Shown here piece after piece: positions 19,456-27,985 of a DNA stretch of 37,348 nt (the first letter of the stretch is position 1; each line of letters starts with the position of its first letter). The stretch is from Lactobacillus equicursoris DSM 19284 = JCM 14600 = CIP 110162. Lineage in GTDB: Bacteria > Bacillota > Bacilli > Lactobacillales > Lactobacillaceae. Location: contig NZ_AZDU01000020.1 of NCBI RefSeq assembly GCF_001434815.1, forward strand, positions 1 through 37,348, written 5' to 3'. The position numbers and the translations under genes are program-made. The notes beneath the pieces are model-generated. The model made no database searches, had not been told where the DNA came from, and worked only from the letters and a program-made list of their open reading frames with translations.

Positions 19456-19488
19456 AAGAAGCTAGTCAATCTAGCTTCTTTTCTTTTG
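19456..19488 (+). terminator. Terminator after purD
   Basis: A perfect 10-bp stem AAGAAGCTAG (19456-19465) with CTAGCTTCTT (19471-19480), a 5-nt loop and a T-rich tail. Confidence 0.9.
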
Positions 19489-19559: not shown

Positions 19560-19588
19560 TTGACATGAGAGAAAAAATAAAATAGAAT
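19560..19588 (+). promoter_or_regulatory. Promoter of the liv operon
   Basis: A consensus -35 box TTGACA (19560-19565), a 17-base spacer, and a -10 box TAGAAT (19583-19588). The start is expected near 19595, giving a leader of about 266 nt before livJ. Confidence 0.85.
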
Positions 19589-19611
19589 AAAAACAACTTA
19601 AGATTAAAAGG

Positions 19612-19673
19612 AGCTGAGAACAATGAAATCATCTATGTGTCATCAAATGAATAATTCAATGCTGTTCTCAGCT
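19612..19673 (+). repeat. Perfect 11-bp inverted repeat flanking the first half of the leader peptide
   Basis: AGCTGAGAACA (19612-19622) is the exact reverse complement of TGTTCTCAGCT (19663-19673). The left arm ends on the base before the leader ATG and shares 2 bases with its ribosome binding site. The right arm ends at the first Val codon. In RNA it would form a stem with a 40-nt loop that could limit leader initiation or be opened by the translating ribosome. Confidence 0.7.
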
Positions 19674-19703
19674 GTCGTCATTACTCTCTTGCAAATTATG
19701 TAG
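19623..19703 (+). CDS. Leader peptide of the liv operon, 26 residues
   Basis: A short reading frame with AAGGAG 9 bases before its ATG, 28 bases after the predicted transcription start. It has five methionines (residues 1, 5, 9, 13 and 26) and ends in AVVITLLQIM, a run containing two Val, two Leu and two Ile codons, then TAG. The stop lies at the 5' base of the next hairpin. Size, position, substrate-matched codons and downstream competing hairpins are those of an attenuation leader peptide. It is not known to me as an annotated gene. Translation has not been shown. Confidence 0.72.
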   Translation: MKSSMCHQMNNSMLFSAVVITLLQIM

Positions 19704-19720
19704 AGCTCTTTACGAGCTCT
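19702..19720 (+). promoter_or_regulatory. Leader hairpin 1:2, overlapping the leader peptide stop codon
   Basis: AGAGCTC (19702-19708) pairs with GAGCTCT (19714-19720) across loop TTTAC. Because GAGCTC is self-complementary, the 3' arm can instead pair with GAGCTC at 19742-19747 in the next segment. A ribosome sitting at the stop codon would cover the 5' arm. A loose T-rich stretch follows at 19721-19735. Confidence 0.65.
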
Positions 19721-19735
19721 TCTTCGGTTGTTTTT

Positions 19736-19776
19736 GTGAGTGAGCTCAGATGATCCGGATATGAGTCTTCGCTCAC
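19736..19776 (+). promoter_or_regulatory. Candidate antiterminator hairpin 3:4 of the liv leader
   Basis: GTGAGTGAG (19736-19744) pairs with the segment at 19768-19776, and CTCA (19745-19748) pairs with TGAG (19762-19765), leaving a 2-nt bulge and a 13-nt loop. The 3' half is the same sequence that forms the 5' half of the terminator at 19763-19806, so the two structures exclude each other. Confidence 0.65.
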
Positions 19777-19806
19777 AAGGGTGAGTGAAGGCTCTTTTAA
19801 TTTTAG
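19763..19806 (+). terminator. Intrinsic terminator (4:5) in the liv leader
   Basis: GAGTCTTCGCTCAC (19763-19776) pairs with GTGAGTGAAGGCTC (19781-19794) over all 14 positions, including two G-U pairs, with loop AAGG. The tail is TTTTAATTTT. It sits 55 bases before livJ and inside the transcript, so it must be avoided for the transporter to be made. Confidence 0.82.
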
Positions 19807-19860: not shown

Positions 19861-21054
19861 ATGAACTTCAAGAAATTCTTCGGTGTCGCAGCCGCAACCA
19901 TGATGTCCGCTGCTGCTTTAACCGGTTGTGCAACTGCTAAGACTAGCTCAAACTCAGGCAATAAGGCAACTGACAACAAGATCAGAATCGGAGTTAACCT
20001 TGAATTATCAGGTTCAGTTGCCAGCTACGGCCAACAAGAAAAGAAGGGTGTTACTTTAGCCGCCCAACAAATCAACAAGAAGGGCGTTAAGATCGGTGGA
20101 AAGACTTATAAGGTTAAGCTTTATATCAGCGACAACAAGTCATCCACGTCAACTGCTGCTTCTGTTGCTGCTCAGCTTGCCAACTCAGATAAGATCGTTG
20201 CTGAAGTTGGTCCAGCCGCAACTGCTTACGCAACGGCTTCAATCTCCAACCTGACCAAGGCTGGCGTGCCACTGGTTTCACCATCAGCAACTGCTGCTGA
20301 ATTTACCCAAACTAAGAGCGGCCAAACTCAAAAGTACGTCTTCCGTTCATGCTTCATCGACCCATTCCAAGGTAAGAAGGCTGCGGACTTCATGTACAAC
20401 ACGCTGAAGAAGAGAAAGGTTGCTATTGTTGCTGACAACTCAACTGACTACGGTACTGGCCTTACCAAGTCCTTCACTACTGAATTCAAGAAGTTGGGCG
20501 GCAAGATCGTAACTACCCAATACTTCCAATCAGGTGACAAGGACTTCAACTCCACTCTGACAACGGTTAAAGGCAAGAACCCAGACGCAGTTTACCTGCC
20601 AGGCTACTACACTGAACTTGGTTTAGTTCTCAAGCAAGCTCGTGAAATGGGCATCAAGGTACCATTTGTCGGCGGTGACGGTATGGGTTCACCAAAGCTG
20701 GCTCAAATCGCTGGCAACAAGAACGCCACTAACGTTTACTACACTACTCACTTCTCAACTAAGTCAACTGACCCTGCAGTTACTAAGTTCATGAAGGTTT
20801 ACAAGGCTAAGTACCACGAAGACCCAGCTGTCTTCTCATCATTAGCTTACGACGCCGTTTACATGATTGTTAAGGCTGCTCAAAACGAAGGCGAAGTTTC
20901 ATCAAGCGCCGTTCAAAAGGGCTTAGCTAACCTGAAGAACTTCAAGGGTGTAACTGGTTCAATCACCATGGACTCCAAGCACAACCCACAAAAGTCAGTT
21001 GTTGTTGAACAAATGACTAACGGCAAGATCGCTAAGGCTTACACTGTTAAGTAA
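19861..21054 (+). CDS. livJ: Branched-chain amino acid ABC transporter, substrate-binding lipoprotein
   Basis: A 397-residue extracellular binding protein of the Leu/Ile/Val receptor family that delivers amino acids to the LivHM permease. A lipoprotein signal ends in the lipobox LTGC, with lipidation predicted at Cys23. The mature part follows the type I periplasmic-binding fold, with GVNLELSGSVASYGQQEKKG and EVGPAATAYATASISN. AGAGGAA lies about 7 bases before the ATG. It is first in the livJHMGF unit and lies behind the attenuator leader. Exact substrate preference among Leu, Ile and Val is inferred from family and leader codons. Confidence 0.93.
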   Translation: MNFKKFFGVAAATMMSAAALTGCATAKTSSNSGNKATDNKIRIGVNLELSGSVASYGQQEKKGVTLAAQQINKKGVKIGGKTYKVKLYISDNKSSTSTAASVAAQLANSDKIVAEVGPAATAYATASISNLTKAGVPLVSPSATAAEFTQTKSGQTQKYVFRSCFIDPFQGKKAADFMYNTLKKRKVAIVADNSTDYGTGLTKSFTTEFKKLGGKIVTTQYFQSGDKDFNSTLTTVKGKNPDAVYLPGYYTELGLVLKQAREMGIKVPFVGGDGMGSPKLAQIAGNKNATNVYYTTHFSTKSTDPAVTKFMKVYKAKYHEDPAVFSSLAYDAVYMIVKAAQNEGEVSSSAVQKGLANLKNFKGVTGSITMDSKHNPQKSVVVEQMTNGKIAKAYTVK

Positions 21055-21090: not shown

Positions 21091-21969
21091 TTGCATACAT
21101 TTTTTCAGCAATTGATAAATGGACTGTCACTCGGTAGCATTTATGCTTTGCTGGCTCTGGGGTACATGATCGTTTATGGTATCTCCAAGCTGCTGAACTT
21201 CGCTCACGGTGACGTCTACATGCTAGGTGCTTATTGGGGCTACTACACCATCAACTACTTGCACTTTGGCTTTTTAGCCGCCTTGATCACTGCTATGCTG
21301 GCCTGCGGTTTGGCTGGGGTGATTATCGAAGCTGTTGCCTACCGGCCGCTGCGTAATGCACCCCGGGTGGCTGCTTTGATTACGGCTATCGGTGTTTCCT
21401 ACTTTTTGGAAAACGGGATGTCTTACCTGGTAACGTCAGACACCAGAAACTTCCCGCAGGTTATCAAGAGAAAGACTTTTGATCTTGGTGGTGTGTCAAT
21501 TTCTAACATTCAGCTGATCATCTTTGCGACCACGATCGTCTTGATGGCGGCTCTGGTTTACATCATCAACCATACCAAGACCGGCCGGGCCATGCGGTCA
21601 GTATCAACTGACTACGACGCAGCCAGTCTGATGGGGATCAACATCAACCACGCAGTTTCCATCACCTTCGCTTTGGGGAGCGCCTTGGCGGGTGCCGCCG
21701 GCGTTTTGATTGGGATGTACTACAACTCAATCGACCCTCTGATGGGGATGACTCCTGGTATTAAGGCTTTTGTTGCCGCGGTTTTAGGCGGGATCGGCTC
21801 CATTCCAGGTGCGGCTGTTGGTGGCTTCTTGATTGGTCTTTTGGAAACTGCTGTTCAAGCTCTGGGCTTCTCAGCCTTTAGAGATGCAGCCGTATATATC
21901 GTATTAATCGTTATCCTGCTCGTTTTGCCAGGCGGTCTGTTTGGCAAGAAGCAAGTTGAAAAGGTTTAG
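21091..21969 (+). CDS. livH: Branched-chain amino acid ABC transporter, permease LivH
   Basis: A 292-residue inner-membrane permease with about eight hydrophobic segments. The conserved start NGLSLGSIYALLALGYMIVYGI and the C-terminal FVAAVLGGIGSIPGA loop, which contacts the ATPase, are typical. The start is TTG with a perfect AAGGAGG 7 bases upstream; the usual family N-terminus begins here. It pairs with LivM to form the translocation channel. Confidence 0.95.
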   Translation: MHTFFQQLINGLSLGSIYALLALGYMIVYGISKLLNFAHGDVYMLGAYWGYYTINYLHFGFLAALITAMLACGLAGVIIEAVAYRPLRNAPRVAALITAIGVSYFLENGMSYLVTSDTRNFPQVIKRKTFDLGGVSISNIQLIIFATTIVLMAALVYIINHTKTGRAMRSVSTDYDAASLMGININHAVSITFALGSALAGAAGVLIGMYYNSIDPLMGMTPGIKAFVAAVLGGIGSIPGAAVGGFLIGLLETAVQALGFSAFRDAAVYIVLIVILLVLPGGLFGKKQVEKV

Positions 21970-21985
21970 GAGGGACAAGTCAGAC

Positions 21986-22963
21986 ATGAAAAAGAATTTG
22001 AAATACAATCTTTGCTGGCTGGTCCTGATGGTAGCAGGTTTCTACCTGATCAACACCTTGATGCTGACAGGTGTCATCAATACCTTTATTGAAAACATGC
22101 TGGTGACGATCGGGATTAACATTATCTTGGCCGTTGGCTTGAACTTGATCATTGGTTTCTCTGGTCAGTTCTCCTTGGGTCACGCCGGTTTTATGGCCTT
22201 GGGTGCCTACGCAACTGGGATTATGACCCAAACTATGAATTCAGCAGGTGGCTTTTACCTGTCAATCTTGGTCGGCGTAGTCATTTCCATTATCGTGGCC
22301 TTAATCGTCGGCATCCCAACCCTCCGTCTGCATGGTGACTACTTCGCCATCGCCACGATGGGGGCTGCGGAAATCATCAGAATTGTCATCAACAATATGA
22401 AGATCACCAACGGGGCAGCTGGATTGTTCAACATTCCGCAGTTTGCTACTTGGGACATTGTCTACATCTTCGTTTGCTTGACGACGATCGTCACGGTAAA
22501 CTTTATCCATTCTAAGAATGGCCGTGCCGTGATCTCAATTCGGGAAAACGAAATTGCCGCTGAAGCCATGGGGGTTAACACCACCAAGTGGAAGCTGTCA
22601 GCCTTTGTTTTAGGGGCTGCTACTGCCGCCATTGCTGGTTCTCTTTACGCTTCATACCTCCAAACCATCGTTCCATCCAGTTTCGGCATCATGGAATCAA
22701 TCACCATTTTGATTTACGCCGTGCTTGGGGGGCTGGGCAGCATCACTGGTACCTTTGTCGCTACCATCTTGCTGGGCGTTTTGGACACGGCCCTTCAAAG
22801 CTTGGGCGTTTTGCGGATGGTCTTTTACGCAATTGCCTTGATCGTAATCATGATCTTCAGACCAGGTGGTCTGTTTGGCAAGTGGGAATTTTCATTCAAG
22901 CACCTATTGACCCGCAAGCAAAATGGGGACATGGCTGAAGTTGAAAAAGAAGAAAGCAAGTAG
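21986..22963 (+). CDS. livM: Branched-chain amino acid ABC transporter, permease LivM
   Basis: A 325-residue multi-pass permease, partner of LivH. It shows GLNLIIGFSGQFSLGHAGFM and the ATPase-contact loop YAVLGGLGSITGTF near the C-terminus. ATG at 21986 follows AGGAGG by 12 bases, which is long. A TTG at 21941 within livH would extend it by 15 highly charged residues without a better site, so I reject it. Confidence 0.93.
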   Translation: MKKNLKYNLCWLVLMVAGFYLINTLMLTGVINTFIENMLVTIGINIILAVGLNLIIGFSGQFSLGHAGFMALGAYATGIMTQTMNSAGGFYLSILVGVVISIIVALIVGIPTLRLHGDYFAIATMGAAEIIRIVINNMKITNGAAGLFNIPQFATWDIVYIFVCLTTIVTVNFIHSKNGRAVISIRENEIAAEAMGVNTTKWKLSAFVLGAATAAIAGSLYASYLQTIVPSSFGIMESITILIYAVLGGLGSITGTFVATILLGVLDTALQSLGVLRMVFYAIALIVIMIFRPGGLFGKWEFSFKHLLTRKQNGDMAEVEKEESK

Positions 22964-22978
22964 CGAAGGAGGAACAGA

Positions 22979-23755
22979 ATGACAGAAGCTTTAAGCGCAG
23001 ATCACATTACCAAAGTGTTCGGCGGTCTGACTGCCGTTGACGATGTTTCTCTGCACGTTAATGAAAAAGAATTGGTGGCATTGATTGGACCAAACGGTGC
23101 CGGCAAGACCACTTTCTTCAACTGCTTGACCGGCGTGGCTCCGGCAACGTCTGGCGTAGTTAAGATTGGCGGCCAGGAAGTCAAGAAGAATACCAAGGCT
23201 TACAAGGTGGCCCAAATGGGGATTTCCCGGACCTTCCAGAACATCCGGCTCTTTAGCCAATTGTCCGTTTTGGAAAACATCTTGATTGCCATGACCAATC
23301 AATTTAAGGAAGGCTTTTTAACCTCAGTTTTCCGTCTGCCAAGTTTTTACAAGACTGAGGACGAGATGGAAGAAAAGGCAATTGCCTTGCTGAAGGACTT
23401 CAACTTGCAAGACGTCATGTACTACCCAGCTGGTGACCTGCCATACGGGACCCAGCGGAAGGTGGAAATCGTCCGGGCCCTGGCAACCAAGCCAAAGATT
23501 ATCTGCTTGGACGAACCAGCAGCCGGGATGAACCCAGAAGAAACGGCTGACTTGACCCGCTTGATCAAGCGCCTGCAGACTGAATACGGGATTGCCGTTT
23601 TGCTGATTGAACACGACATGTCCTTGGTAATGAACCTGGCAGAAAGAATTTACGTTTTGGCTGAAGGCAAGCTTTTGGCCAAGGGGACGCCAGAGGAAAT
23701 TCAAAATAACCAAGCCGTTATCGATGCCTACTTGGGAGGTGGCGTAGATGCCTAA
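22979..23755 (+). CDS. livG: Branched-chain amino acid ABC transporter, ATPase LivG
   Basis: A 258-residue ATP-binding subunit. Walker A GPNGAGKTT, Q-loop SRTFQNIRLF, the degenerate signature LPYGTQRKVEIVRAL that is characteristic of LivG, Walker B IICLDEPAAGMNP, and the H-loop LLIEHDMSLV are all present. AGGAGGA lies just before the ATG. It overlaps livF by 8 bases. Confidence 0.96.
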   Translation: MTEALSADHITKVFGGLTAVDDVSLHVNEKELVALIGPNGAGKTTFFNCLTGVAPATSGVVKIGGQEVKKNTKAYKVAQMGISRTFQNIRLFSQLSVLENILIAMTNQFKEGFLTSVFRLPSFYKTEDEMEEKAIALLKDFNLQDVMYYPAGDLPYGTQRKVEIVRALATKPKIICLDEPAAGMNPEETADLTRLIKRLQTEYGIAVLLIEHDMSLVMNLAERIYVLAEGKLLAKGTPEEIQNNQAVIDAYLGGGVDA

Positions 23756-24464
23756 TGAAATCTTAAAAGTTGACCATCTCTCAGTAAACTACGGGGCGAT
23801 TAAAGCCGTTCGTGATGTCAGCTTTGACATCAAGGAAGGGGAAATCGTAACCCTGATTGGGGCAAACGGTGCCGGCAAGTCTACTATCTTGAAGACCATC
23901 TCAGGACTCCTCAAGCCAAGTGCTGGTGATATCCTCTTTATGGGTGAGTCTTTGGCTAAGCTGACCGCTCCTAAGATTGTAGCGGCCGGGGTCTCCCAAG
24001 TGCCAGAAGGTCGGCGAATCTTTGCCGACATGACGGTTAAGGAAAACCTGCAGCTGGGGGCCTATCTTCGTAAAGACAAAGATGGGATTAACGAAGACAT
24101 GGAAAAGATGTTCAAGCGTTTCCCAATCTTGAAGGAAAGACAAAAGCAAGACGCTGCTACCTTGTCAGGTGGTGAGCAGCAGATGCTGGCCATGGCCAGA
24201 GCCTTGATGGCAAAGCCAAAGCTGCTGTTGCTGGACGAACCATCAATGGGTTTGGCGCCAATCTACATTCAGGAAATTTTTGACATCATTGAAAGCATCA
24301 ACAAGGAAGGCATGACCGTCCTCTTGATTGAACAAAATGCCCGGCAAGCCTTGAGCATTGCCGATCGGGGCTACGTTCTGGCTTCTGGTGAGGTCAAGAT
24401 GACTGGTACCGGGCAAGAGCTCTTGCACGACCCAGCCGTCCAAAAGGCTTACCTGGGTGGCTAA
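23748..24464 (+). CDS. livF: Branched-chain amino acid ABC transporter, ATPase LivF
   Basis: A 238-residue ATP-binding subunit, the heterodimer partner of LivG. Walker A GANGAGKST, the signature LSGGEQQMLAMARAL, Walker B LLLLDEPSMGLAP and the switch region LIEQNARQAL are intact. The start ATG lies inside the last codons of livG behind GGGAGGTGG. It closes the operon, and a terminator follows 14 bases later. Confidence 0.96.
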   Translation: MPNEILKVDHLSVNYGAIKAVRDVSFDIKEGEIVTLIGANGAGKSTILKTISGLLKPSAGDILFMGESLAKLTAPKIVAAGVSQVPEGRRIFADMTVKENLQLGAYLRKDKDGINEDMEKMFKRFPILKERQKQDAATLSGGEQQMLAMARALMAKPKLLLLDEPSMGLAPIYIQEIFDIIESINKEGMTVLLIEQNARQALSIADRGYVLASGEVKMTGTGQELLHDPAVQKAYLGG

Positions 24465-24577: not shown

Positions 24578-25729
24578 ATGACAGGCTTTCAAACCCGCTT
24601 GGTTCACCAGCCCAAGCAAAATGACAACAATACTGGTGCCGTAACGGTGCCGATTTATAAGGCGACGACTTTTGCCTATCCCAAAATCGGGGCCGAGGTC
24701 AAGTATGATTATTCCCGGTCGGGCAACCCAACGAGAAATGCGGTAGAAGAGCAGCTGGCTGACCTGGAAGGCGGTGCTAGAGCCTTCTTGTTTGGCTCCG
24801 GCATGGCGGCCATTCATGCAGCTCTGGCAATTTTTCAAAAGGGCGATCACATCATTATCGGCGACCAGATTTATGGGGGGACCTTTAGAATCCTCCACCA
24901 ATTCTTTGAAAATTGGGGACTAGAAGTAACGCCGATTGACACCCGGGACCTAACAGCAGTTGAATGGGCCATCCAGGATAATACCAAGGGCGTTTACTTT
25001 GAGCCGGTGACTAATCCCTTGCTGCAAGTAACCCCGGTTGCAGGCATTGCCAAGATTGCCCAAAAACATGGTCTCTTGACCATCGTGGACAACACCTTCT
25101 TGAGTCCTTACCTTTTAAATCCAATTGAATATGGGGCAGATCTGGTTGTTCACTCAGCAACTAAGTATCTGTCGGGTCACTCTGACGTCAGTGCCGGAGC
25201 CGTGATCACTAAAGACGAGGAATTAGCTAAGAGAGTCTACTTTGTTCAAAATGCCATTGGCGGGGTCTTGTCACCAGAAGATTCAAACGAGCTTGCCCGC
25301 GGGATTAAAACTCTGGCCTTGCGGATGGACCGGCAAGAAGCAAATGTCTTGAAGCTGGTCGCCTTTTTGAAAAAGGAGAAGGGGATTGCCAAGATTTACT
25401 ATCCAGGCGACCCAGACCTGGCAGGCTACGAAGAGCTAAAAACGGAAGCCAAAGGGGCCGGCGGCGTCTTCTCTTTTGAACTGGATGAAGCAGTCTATGA
25501 CCCAGAAGTCTTTGTCAACTCCTTGGAGATTTTTGCCCTGGCGGTTAGCCTGGGCGCTGTTGAAAGCCTGGTGGAATTGCCAAGTAAGATGAGTCACGCC
25601 GAACTGAGTCCAGAAGAGCAGCTAGCTGCCGGCATCAAGCCCGGCCTCATCCGCTTAGCTGTCGGGATTGAAGACGCTGACGACTTGATTGAGGACTTAA
25701 AGCAGGCTTTGGCTAAGGCAAAGAGATAG
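24578..25729 (+). CDS. Cys/Met-metabolism PLP-dependent enzyme (cystathionine beta-lyase or gamma-synthase type)
   Basis: A 383-residue enzyme of the trans-sulfuration family that acts on cystathionine, homoserine esters or sulfur amino acids. Motifs: YDYSRSGNPTRNAVE, GSGMAAIHAAL, VDNTFLSPYL, and the PLP lysine Lys196 in VVHSATKYLSGHSD. The C-terminal RLAVGIEDADDLIEDL is typical. The segment between YPG and GGVFSFEL has normal length. Sequence alone does not separate beta-lyase, gamma-lyase and gamma-synthase, so I give no symbol. AAGGGGA lies about 6 bases before the ATG. The upstream gap of 70 bases after the liv terminator holds only a weak promoter candidate and no riboswitch that I can see. 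Confidence 0.88.
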   Translation: MTGFQTRLVHQPKQNDNNTGAVTVPIYKATTFAYPKIGAEVKYDYSRSGNPTRNAVEEQLADLEGGARAFLFGSGMAAIHAALAIFQKGDHIIIGDQIYGGTFRILHQFFENWGLEVTPIDTRDLTAVEWAIQDNTKGVYFEPVTNPLLQVTPVAGIAKIAQKHGLLTIVDNTFLSPYLLNPIEYGADLVVHSATKYLSGHSDVSAGAVITKDEELAKRVYFVQNAIGGVLSPEDSNELARGIKTLALRMDRQEANVLKLVAFLKKEKGIAKIYYPGDPDLAGYEELKTEAKGAGGVFSFELDEAVYDPEVFVNSLEIFALAVSLGAVESLVELPSKMSHAELSPEEQLAAGIKPGLIRLAVGIEDADDLIEDLKQALAKAKR

Positions 25730-25812
25730 CGAATATCAAATATCAAACATCAAGTTGAATAGAAAAAATATAAAACAATGTAGTTAGGATTTTAATTAGG
25801 AAGAGGATTAGC

Positions 25813-26961
25813 ATGAGTCAAGAAGAGAAGAAGCAAGACGCAAAGGACCAGTTGGCCTTTGCCACCATCGCTGCTGAAGCCGGTTCCATTAAAGACGGAG
25901 CAAATCCGGTATCTCAGCCCATTTACCTGTCAGCCTGTTACCGCCACCCAAGCTTAGACCAAGCCATTAACTTTGACCGCCTGAAGGGCTTTACCTATTC
26001 CCGGGTGGAAGCTCCCAACCGCAAGGTGGCAGAAGAGACCATTGCTAAGATGGAAGAAGGCTACCAAGCCTTTGCCGTGGCCAGCGGGATGGCAGCGGTC
26101 CAGCTGGTTTTAAGCGTCTTAAAGTCAGGGGATGAAGTTGTGTCTTTAGACGACCTCTACGGCGGGGACTTCCGCTACTTCCGCCACTTGGAGAGCCACT
26201 TTGGCATTGCCTTTAAGCAGTGGAATGGGCAAAAGGTGGAAGATTTAGTTTCCCTTCTTACTGACAAAACCAAGATTGTTTGGCTAGAAACTCCTTCTAA
26301 CCCAACCATGAAGGAGCTAGATATCAAAAAAATTGCCGACGCTGTCCACAATTTTAATGAAAAAATCCTGGTTGCGGTCGACAATACTTTTTATACGCCA
26401 TACTACCAAAAGCCGCTCACCTTGGGGGCCGACGTGGTGATCCACTCGGCTACCAAGTATTTGGGTGGCCATAATGACATTTTAGGCGGCTTGGTCGTGG
26501 TTAACGATCCAGATCTAGCCGATACTTACTTCCAATATACGATCACGGTAGGTGATACCATGTCAAACTTTGACTCCTGGCTCTTGACCAGAAGCCTGAA
26601 GACCCTGCCGATCAGAATGGATCGCCATACCGCTAGCGCCCAGAAGATTGCCAAGTTCTTGGAAATGGCAAATCACGTAGAGAAGGTCCTTTATCCAGGT
26701 AAGGCCGGGATGATTTCCTTCTACCTGGACAGTGAGGCGGAAGTCGAAAGGGTCTTAAACAGCGTTAAGGTGATCACTTTTGCTGAAAGCCTAGGCGGGG
26801 CTGAAAGCTTGATCACTATCCCTTACTACCAGACCCACGATGACGTGGAAGCTGAGCAAAGAGTTCGTCTGGGTATTACCACCAAGCTGCTCCGTTTGTC
26901 AGTTGGTTTGGAAGACCCTGATGACTTGATTGCTGATTTAAAGCAGGCTTTAGGCGACTAA
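25813..26961 (+). CDS. Second Cys/Met-metabolism PLP-dependent enzyme, divergent
   Basis: A 382-residue paralog of the preceding enzyme. The PLP lysine is Lys215 in VIHSATKYLGGHND, and SGMAAVQLVL and RLSVGLEDPDDLIADL are present. Two features are unusual. The YSRxxNPT motif reads YSRVEAPNRK, and the stretch between YPG (294-296) and GMISFYL is about 15 residues shorter than in the neighbour. The N-terminus is about 20 residues longer and charged. It may have a changed substrate or be a degraded duplicate, although the frame is fully open. Its stop codon overlaps that of the convergent gene. Confidence 0.85.
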   Translation: MSQEEKKQDAKDQLAFATIAAEAGSIKDGANPVSQPIYLSACYRHPSLDQAINFDRLKGFTYSRVEAPNRKVAEETIAKMEEGYQAFAVASGMAAVQLVLSVLKSGDEVVSLDDLYGGDFRYFRHLESHFGIAFKQWNGQKVEDLVSLLTDKTKIVWLETPSNPTMKELDIKKIADAVHNFNEKILVAVDNTFYTPYYQKPLTLGADVVIHSATKYLGGHNDILGGLVVVNDPDLADTYFQYTITVGDTMSNFDSWLLTRSLKTLPIRMDRHTASAQKIAKFLEMANHVEKVLYPGKAGMISFYLDSEAEVERVLNSVKVITFAESLGGAESLITIPYYQTHDDVEAEQRVRLGITTKLLRLSVGLEDPDDLIADLKQALGD

Positions 26962-27881: not shown

Positions 27882-27985
27882 GTTGCAATTTGAGTGATAT
27901 ACCTCGATTCTGCAACCGCACAGATGAGGTTGAGAAGTCTGCTTTGGCAGCACCTCTAATGGCGAGTCTAAGTATTTTTTACGGA
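27882..27985 (+). ncRNA. L21 leader (ribosomal protein autoregulatory leader of rplU)
   Basis: The transcribed region before rplU has conserved-looking structure. GTTGCA (27882-27887) pairs with TGCAAC (27911-27916). GAGGT (27926-27930) pairs with ACCTC (27952-27956) and encloses CTGC/GCAG (27939-27942 with 27947-27950). Location and layout match the Bacillota L21 leader family, in which the ribosomal protein is thought to control its own operon. The family assignment is from memory of its layout, not a model search. Confidence 0.7.

Follow-up and report, generated by a model that had tools for sequence, protein, structure and literature searches.

The enterobacterial trp and his leaders, the latter built of six segments (A–F), combine a peptide carrying a codon run with hairpins that exclude each other in series and with termination when the leader is not translated, features also predicted for the leader of a liv transporter operon described here. 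Lactobacilli, food and gut bacteria among which auxotrophy is widespread, are usually said to regulate their amino acid genes through repressors and T-boxes. The leu attenuators of E. coli and Salmonella are treated in PMC6123439, which in the portion available to us also cites predicted branched-chain attenuators in L. lactis, Corynebacterium and Streptococcus. In case of the Gram-positive S. aureus, the ilv-leu attenuator has a 26-residue peptide rich in branched-chain amino acids, a terminator with an alternative fold and a response to Leu, the last being predicted for the leader here, which shares the other features, but precedes biosynthetic genes rather than a transporter (PMC5794164, in excerpt). 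Rli60, before the ilv operon of Listeria, is likewise described as a ribosome-mediated attenuator with a peptide rich in branched-chain amino acids, mutants of which terminate without leader translation; it differs in its 13-residue peptide, its four segments and its biosynthetic operon (PMC5864092, in excerpt). The Gram-positive branched-chain attenuators named in the accessible parts of PMC5794164, PMC5864092 and PMC6123439 precede biosynthetic operons. Leader peptides of the same kind, with His codons, are reported before hisS/hisZ in bacilli by a survey of premature terminators in Firmicutes (PMC2965389), the main text of which does not contain the words liv, branched or leucine. Within the titles and abstract openings of the open full-text literature we found no description of such a leader in lactobacilli, and an earlier one, for instance in a subscription journal, is possible; the lactobacillus paper PMC10832526 is, in the part accessible, unrelated to such a leader.

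We analysed a stretch of 37,348 nucleotides from Lactobacillus equicursoris (contig NZ_AZDU01000020.1; hereafter the window), for which a leader-peptide attenuator before the livJHMGF operon had been predicted from the bare sequence. Our analysis gives good support to a leader-peptide attenuator before liv whose hairpins exclude each other. Judging from sequence comparison and folding models, we consider it very probable that ribosome-mediated transcription attenuation in this region adjusts expression of the transporter to the charging of branched-chain tRNAs. The consensus promoter of the original prediction and its 26-codon frame with a good ribosome binding site were both recovered (Table 1), the promoter scan returning 3 promoter-like sites against 2.2 expected in shuffles; the transcript would be expected to start at about 19595. 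A terminator-like site lies upstream of the leader, after purD (19456–19480), and the scan of the window assigned 14 pairs and a T tail to the terminator of the leader itself (19763–19794). Two genes of the cystathionine lyase/synthase type, with scores below the curated cut-offs, directly follow livF (24578–26961), and Rfam matches elsewhere in the window comprise a ribosomal protein L21 leader (27904–27979) and a tRNA gene (84–157).

Table 1. Features of the liv leader and of the genes behind it (window coordinates).
Feature	Position	Strand	Basis
Sigma-70-type promoter, TTGACA-17-TAGAAT	19560–19588	+	Promoter scan, 11/12 matches
Shine-Dalgarno of leader frame, AAAGGAG	19607–19613	+	9 nt 5' of ATG
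Helix A, 5' arm, AGCUGAGAACA, overlapping the ribosome site	19612–19622	+	Minimum-energy fold, covariation
Leader peptide frame, MKSSMCHQMNNSMLFSAVVITLLQIM and stop, 26 codons	19623–19703	+	Read from sequence; frame kept in 4 relatives
Helix A, 3' arm, UGUUCUCAGCU, mid leader frame	19663–19673	+	Minimum-energy fold, covariation
Putative controlling codons, GTC GTC ATT ACT CTC TTG (V V I T L L)	19674–19691	+	Leu at -5/-4 before segment 1; codon table, edge model
Segment 0, CTC T CTTGCAAA, partner of segment 3 around 1:2	19684–19695	+	Fold, permutation test
Segment 1, AGAGCTC, begins within stop codon	19702–19708	+	Folding, alignment
Segment 2, GAGCTCT	19714–19720	+	Folding, alignment
Segment 3, pairs alternatively with 0, 2 or 4	19733–19748	+	Folding
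Segment 4, forms the antiterminator (with 3) or the terminator (with 5)	19762–19776	+	Folding
Segment 5 and T tail of intrinsic terminator	19781–19804	+	Terminator scan, folding
livJ-type substrate-binding lipoprotein, first regulated gene	19861–21054	+	Annotation search
livH, livM, livG, livF	21091–24464	+	Permeases 21091–21969, 21941–22963; ATPases 22979–23755, 23748–24464

Folding of the leader returned the four hairpins and the terminator that had been claimed, exact to the base, with energies for the isolated hairpins of -9.7 (1:2), -11.4 (2:3), -15.1 (3:4) and -23.6 kcal/mol (4:5). The region 19595–19806 as a whole reached -71.4 kcal/mol against -48.2 (sd 4.3) for its shuffles, none of 200 being as stable (z -5.4). 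The set was nevertheless incomplete, two conserved helices having been overlooked: helix A and a helix 0:3, which belongs to the minimum-energy fold and pairs CUC-U-CUUGCAAA (19684–19695) with UUUGUGAG-U-GAG (19733–19744) whilst enclosing 1:2. According to the folding model, 0:3 should make the untranslated leader terminate, and helix A should cover the ribosome site of the leader frame.

The front edge of a ribosome was taken to lie 12 nt beyond the first base of the A site, and with this usual footprint (edge model) segment 1 is free in the window when the ribosome is placed at GTC 19677, ATT 19680, CTC or TTG, whilst a ribosome at the TAG covers the RNA up to 19713, segment 2 being freed exactly from its first base. 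Limited-length folding with the RNA end at 19792 gave predicted terminator probabilities of 0.02 (GTC), 0.03 (ATT), 0.03 (CTC) and 0.01 (TTG) for stalled ribosomes compared to 0.52 with the ribosome at the stop codon and 0.76 without a ribosome, 0:3 standing at 0.49 in the last case; the direction of the proposed switch, in which stalling favours 1:2 and 3:4 and arrival at the stop favours 2:3 and 4:5, is thus borne out in the model. With RNA ends at 19776–19784, 3:4 leads in every ribosome state (dominating to 19784 with the ribosome at the stop and to 19788 without one), whereas once the RNA extends to 19796 every state favours the terminator, so that the choice must be one of timing; as the full-length leader always folds the terminator at equilibrium, read-through must be kinetic. 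A cruder measure over the whole ensemble scored the untranslated (-12.0) and stalled (-11.9) leader of the window as equal, with the stop state alone differing (-13.8), and the switch predicted for the window itself is modest. Applied to 80 leaders of the family described below, the same measure gave both expected shifts for a stall at -5 in 65, one or both being missing in 15; for a stall at -4 the expected shift was seen in 55/80 relative to the untranslated state and in 62/80 relative to the stop state.

Conservation in relatives was then the comparison on which the prediction depended, and the same layout was found in four other Lactobacillus genomes, all of which keep the leader frame, as well as family-wide. 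By DNA search the leader is present in 5 of 75 Lactobacillus genomes, the window included, and the peptides of the four relatives read MKCQMCQQMNNAMLFSAAVITLLQIM, MKCQMCQQMNNAMLFSAAVITLLQIM with LLQVM, MKCQMCQQMNNAILFSSSVITLLQIM and MEKQMCQQRNNAMMFSANVIARLQIIG; variation within this five-member delbrueckii group alone is too low for a pairing test. The livJ of one locus (L014) is 81% identical to that of the window. A plasmid collection contained no similar DNA, and spread by plasmids was set aside for this reason. Among 397 sampled Lactobacillaceae genomes, 111 contained livJ homologues (123 matches), and the upstream regions of 109 matches were read; the other 14 comprised the window, second copies in tandem and a few additional places. 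A frame finder kept 83 of these, from which three unrelated frames (L102, L110, L115) were removed by eye. The remaining 80 leaders have a frame led by a ribosome site, with (Q)NLALLLxKKDP at or close to its end in most cases and a terminator behind it in nearly all, and could be aligned to a common serial scheme: 1, AAGGACCCGAC; 2, GTTGAGCCCTTATT; 3, AATGATGAGGGCTT; 4, ACCTCATTCATT; 5, AATGAATGAGG-T(n).

A covariance model (R1) was built from 44 leaders thinned from the 80 at 85% identity (41 family rows and 3 from the delbrueckii group). At a threshold of 1e-6, R1 found 119 sites in 99/397 genomes and 14/40 genera, 81 of them no more than 700 nt upstream of livJ, which corresponds to 81/123 livJ matches and 81/111 livJ-bearing genomes; 40 of the 81 had served as training rows, the other 41 had not. 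Such leaders had been called unusual in lactobacilli, a view that these counts contradict. The 42 livJ matches without an R1 site at this threshold include the window, which as a training row scores 3.4e-9 by construction and is missed at 1e-6 under stricter filters, and which contains segments 0–5 and the leader frame; L100, likewise a training row, yields no R1 site at 1e-6. In several Lactobacillus genomes (L164, L167, L171) there are two liv operons, both preceded by a leader of their own, the two leaders lying about 5 kb apart. Examination of 21 of the 38 sites not before livJ, the others being one at a contig end and 16 outside this set, showed 14 before leuA, 5 before leuB, 1 before an iron-containing dehydrogenase and 1 before an Opp4A-type gene, where NCBIfam served to check a single protein each for leuA, leuB and Opp4A, and BLAST to those three to assign the rest. 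Opp4A-type oligopeptide binding proteins follow the leader in some Lactobacillus at L135, L136 and L137 (BLAST) and at L166 and L168, the last two judged from their first residues only; L165 is a further Lactobacillus locus of this type. The dehydrogenase, which is glycerol-dehydrogenase-like and follows a leader ending in KDP (L223:277-414), is an odd target for the class.

In a sample of 295 genomes from the whole order, 12 had R1 sites at 1e-5, two of them in another family. Of 76 genomes from that family, 5 had sites at 1e-4, with modest scores of 42–51 bits, and at these sites (L229:1501-1645, L230, L233, L234, L235) the same scaffold carries an Ile run (IIIII or IIIVI): MQLLSQQNIIIIINNRT before a branched-chain aminotransferase in two genomes, MFSLSQNIIIIIKSRA before a livJ-like protein and MFTHFNNIIIVIQRPDLLN before an SBF-family transporter in two genomes.

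T-boxes had been named as the better known form of control in these bacteria, and a Leu-responsive T-box does control ilv-leu in B. subtilis according to the available portion of PMC6123439, which would agree with the leader being a T-box, a protein-bound leader or a metabolite riboswitch, with no role for the small frame. Rfam gave no T-box match in the window or in 40 loci (one of them the window's own) at E 0.1, and no regulatory RNA of Rfam 15, Leu_leader included, at the liv leader of the window; together with the conservation of frame, ribosome site and Leu run, these results make such a reading extremely improbable. The sole Rfam matches in the 40 loci at E 0.1 were to Ref68 (Lacto-3 RNA) in two of them, in the flank upstream of the leaders (L022:820-924, L042:803-908).

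Pairing of the segments was tested on 80 of 85 leaders, 75 of them distinct, the misaligned L037, L085 and L123–L125 being left out. The energy of each leader's own duplex was compared to that after permutation of partners between species, giving -12.6/-8.6 (1:2), -17.0/-14.1 (2:3), -14.8/-12.1 (3:4), -17.4/-12.4 (4:5) and -15.1/-10.9 kcal/mol (0:3), so that a partner taken from another species costs 4.0, 2.9, 2.7, 5.0 and 4.2 kcal/mol, respectively; for none of the five did any of 2000 permutations reach the observed value. Eight of ten control pairs (0:1, 0:2, 0:4, 1:4, 1:5, 2:4, 2:5, 3:5) gained at most 0.4 kcal/mol, whilst 1:3 (0.7 kcal/mol) and 0:5 (1.1 kcal/mol) also gave 0/2000, from which it follows that relatedness contributes something, the permutation test leaving shared ancestry in. 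The gain for 2:3 falls to 0.3–0.55 kcal/mol once segment 3 is cut shorter. Helix A gained 7.2 kcal/mol over 81 distinct leaders (-18.2 against -11.1 permuted; 0/2000) and is weak, at -4 to -8, in a few leaders (L018, L123, L124, L126). Column counts for 1:2 and 3:4 showed changes on both sides in 13/21 pairs, a number reached in 5/500 shuffles and compared to 3–8 in slid versions, with two of the eleven positions of 1:2 unpaired in 37–38 of 44 rows and with pair types within the range of the shuffles (71/500). For 2:3 and 4:5 the corresponding count was 9/16 (1/500 shuffles; slid versions 1–4), eight of the nine belonging to 4:5 and a single one to 2:3. For 2:3 the leaders divide into two registers, according to how segment 3 is aligned, and the window pairs 6/6 in its own register. 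On this comparative evidence, helices 0:3 and A are conserved and covary across the family, as do the hairpins originally predicted. The alternative that the region is a mere transcription terminator accompanied by chance hairpins, without regulation, could draw on the modest switch of the window and on its run of branched-chain codons, which alone is not significant; given helices that are conserved and covary across genera, its probability is virtually negligible.

The codon run itself comprises Val, Ile or Leu at 6 of the last 9 residues of the window peptide (P 0.009 for the stretch, about 0.16 when position is allowed for), and its significance comes from the relatives. Of the 80 leaders, 69 show segment 1 clearly (the 11 without the motif being left out of the codon table), and in these Leu occupies codons -5, -4 and -3 before segment 1 in 67, 69 and 68 cases, written with several synonymous codons (TTA, TTG, CTA and others). 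Segment 1 itself lies in frame 0 inside the leader frame in 60 of 75 leaders; another 12 have it in frame 2, and the last 3 at the stop or beyond. The RNA word is thus retained across differing frames, whereas for Leu it is the amino acid that is conserved. The window has CTC at -5, TTG at -4, CAA at -3 (Gln, as throughout its clade), ATT at -7 and GTC at -8 and -9. An arrest peptide, which would sense a small molecule via the nascent chain rather than codon supply, would agree with the well conserved peptide core Q-N/D-L-A-L-L-L-x-x-K-D-P of the family; its Ala (GCC) and Lys-Asp (AAGGAC) are, however, explicable by the need of the RNA to pair with segments 3 and 2, the run turns to Ile before other branched-chain amino acid genes and the clade of the window is without the motif, all of which renders an arrest peptide very improbable.

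Given a codon-sensing leader, the amino acid sensed has to be considered, and here Val or Ile had been named as the signal. This is at best part of the answer: V V I do precede L L in the window, and a leader sensing mainly Val and Ile, with Leu incidental, would also fit the leader of L006 (V I A R L Q I I, one Leu being kept in the run) and the Ile runs on the same scaffold in the other family. The class is, however, anchored on Leu at -5/-4/-3 and on its leuA/leuB targets, and the window keeps Leu at -5/-4, in the edge model the last codons at which a stall spares 1:2. We regard mainly Val/Ile sensing as rather unlikely, and a version with Val and Ile as the only signals was set aside owing to the family codon table and the leuA/leuB targets. 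Read from the codons, Leu would be the signal of the class, and in the clade of the window Ile and Val codons stand beside Leu. ATA serves as an Ile codon in the L006 leader; it accounts for 1 of 247 Ile codons in the eleven window genes that served as reference, and could sharpen stalling. The first half of the window leader is rich in Met and Cys (MKxxMCxQMNNxM, 19623–19661) and lies in the loop of helix A; leaders L018, L022 and L042 share this feature, and MSxMCM occurs in another genus. Met/Cys sensing by this half was set aside, as the Met and Cys codons at 19635–19661 lie at least 14 codons before segment 1 and a stall there would leave 0:3 able to form.

Anatomy, conservation, covariation, codon placement and target genes having been computed here, we infer transcript start, translation, actual termination, starvation response and order of folding as follows. 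A ribosome would load on the leader before helix A forms. Were Leu-tRNA (or Ile/Val-tRNA) short, it would stall at the V-V-I-T-L-L codons, covering segment 0 and leaving segment 1 free; 1:2 would form, 3 would pair with 4 and the terminator 4:5 would be delayed, allowing transcription of liv. With charged tRNAs the ribosome would reach the stop codon, its front edge (about 19713) covering segment 1 and not segment 2, upon which 2:3 would form and 4:5 terminate. If no ribosome loads, 0:3 would enclose 1:2 and again sequester segment 3, leading to termination at 4:5, and helix A probably shuts the leader ribosome site after passage of the first ribosome. The window has hallmarks of an attenuator: a short frame, predicted to be translated, with codons of the regulated amino acid (V V I T L L), an exclusive antiterminator and terminator between which ribosome position is predicted to choose, modestly in the window, and target genes that act on the same amino acid (livJ in the window, leuA and leuB at other sites of the class).

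How far this extends the described systems can be seen by comparison. The antiterminator and terminator energies given for Rli60 (-10.3 and -17.1 kcal/mol) stand in a ratio similar to that of 3:4 and 4:5 here (PMC5864092, in excerpt), whilst the S. aureus antiterminator is described as leaving the terminator stem-loop in place and sequestering the poly-U, and a serial scheme of segments 0–5 is not described in the accessible text of PMC5794164. If true, codon sensing on such a scale would account for the way in which transport keeps pace with the demands of translation; the Leu, Ile and mixed sensors would form a natural series for how codon choice sets specificity, and an RNA family without a match in Rfam 15 would be added. 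We give an even chance to the wider proposal that the Lactobacillales have an undescribed portable scaffold of seven RNA elements, which is redirected between genes of transport, biosynthesis and peptide uptake through exchange of the codon run alone (Leu, Ile or mixed Leu/Ile/Val), the run doubling as the 0:3 partner of the antiterminator strand and a covarying hairpin gating the leader ribosome site, with one sensing ribosome per transcript. Compared to the trp, his and leu leaders, with sequence relation assessed through Rfam only, the leader here differs in that its ribosome site lies in a covarying hairpin and in that its codon run is a third partner of segment 3.
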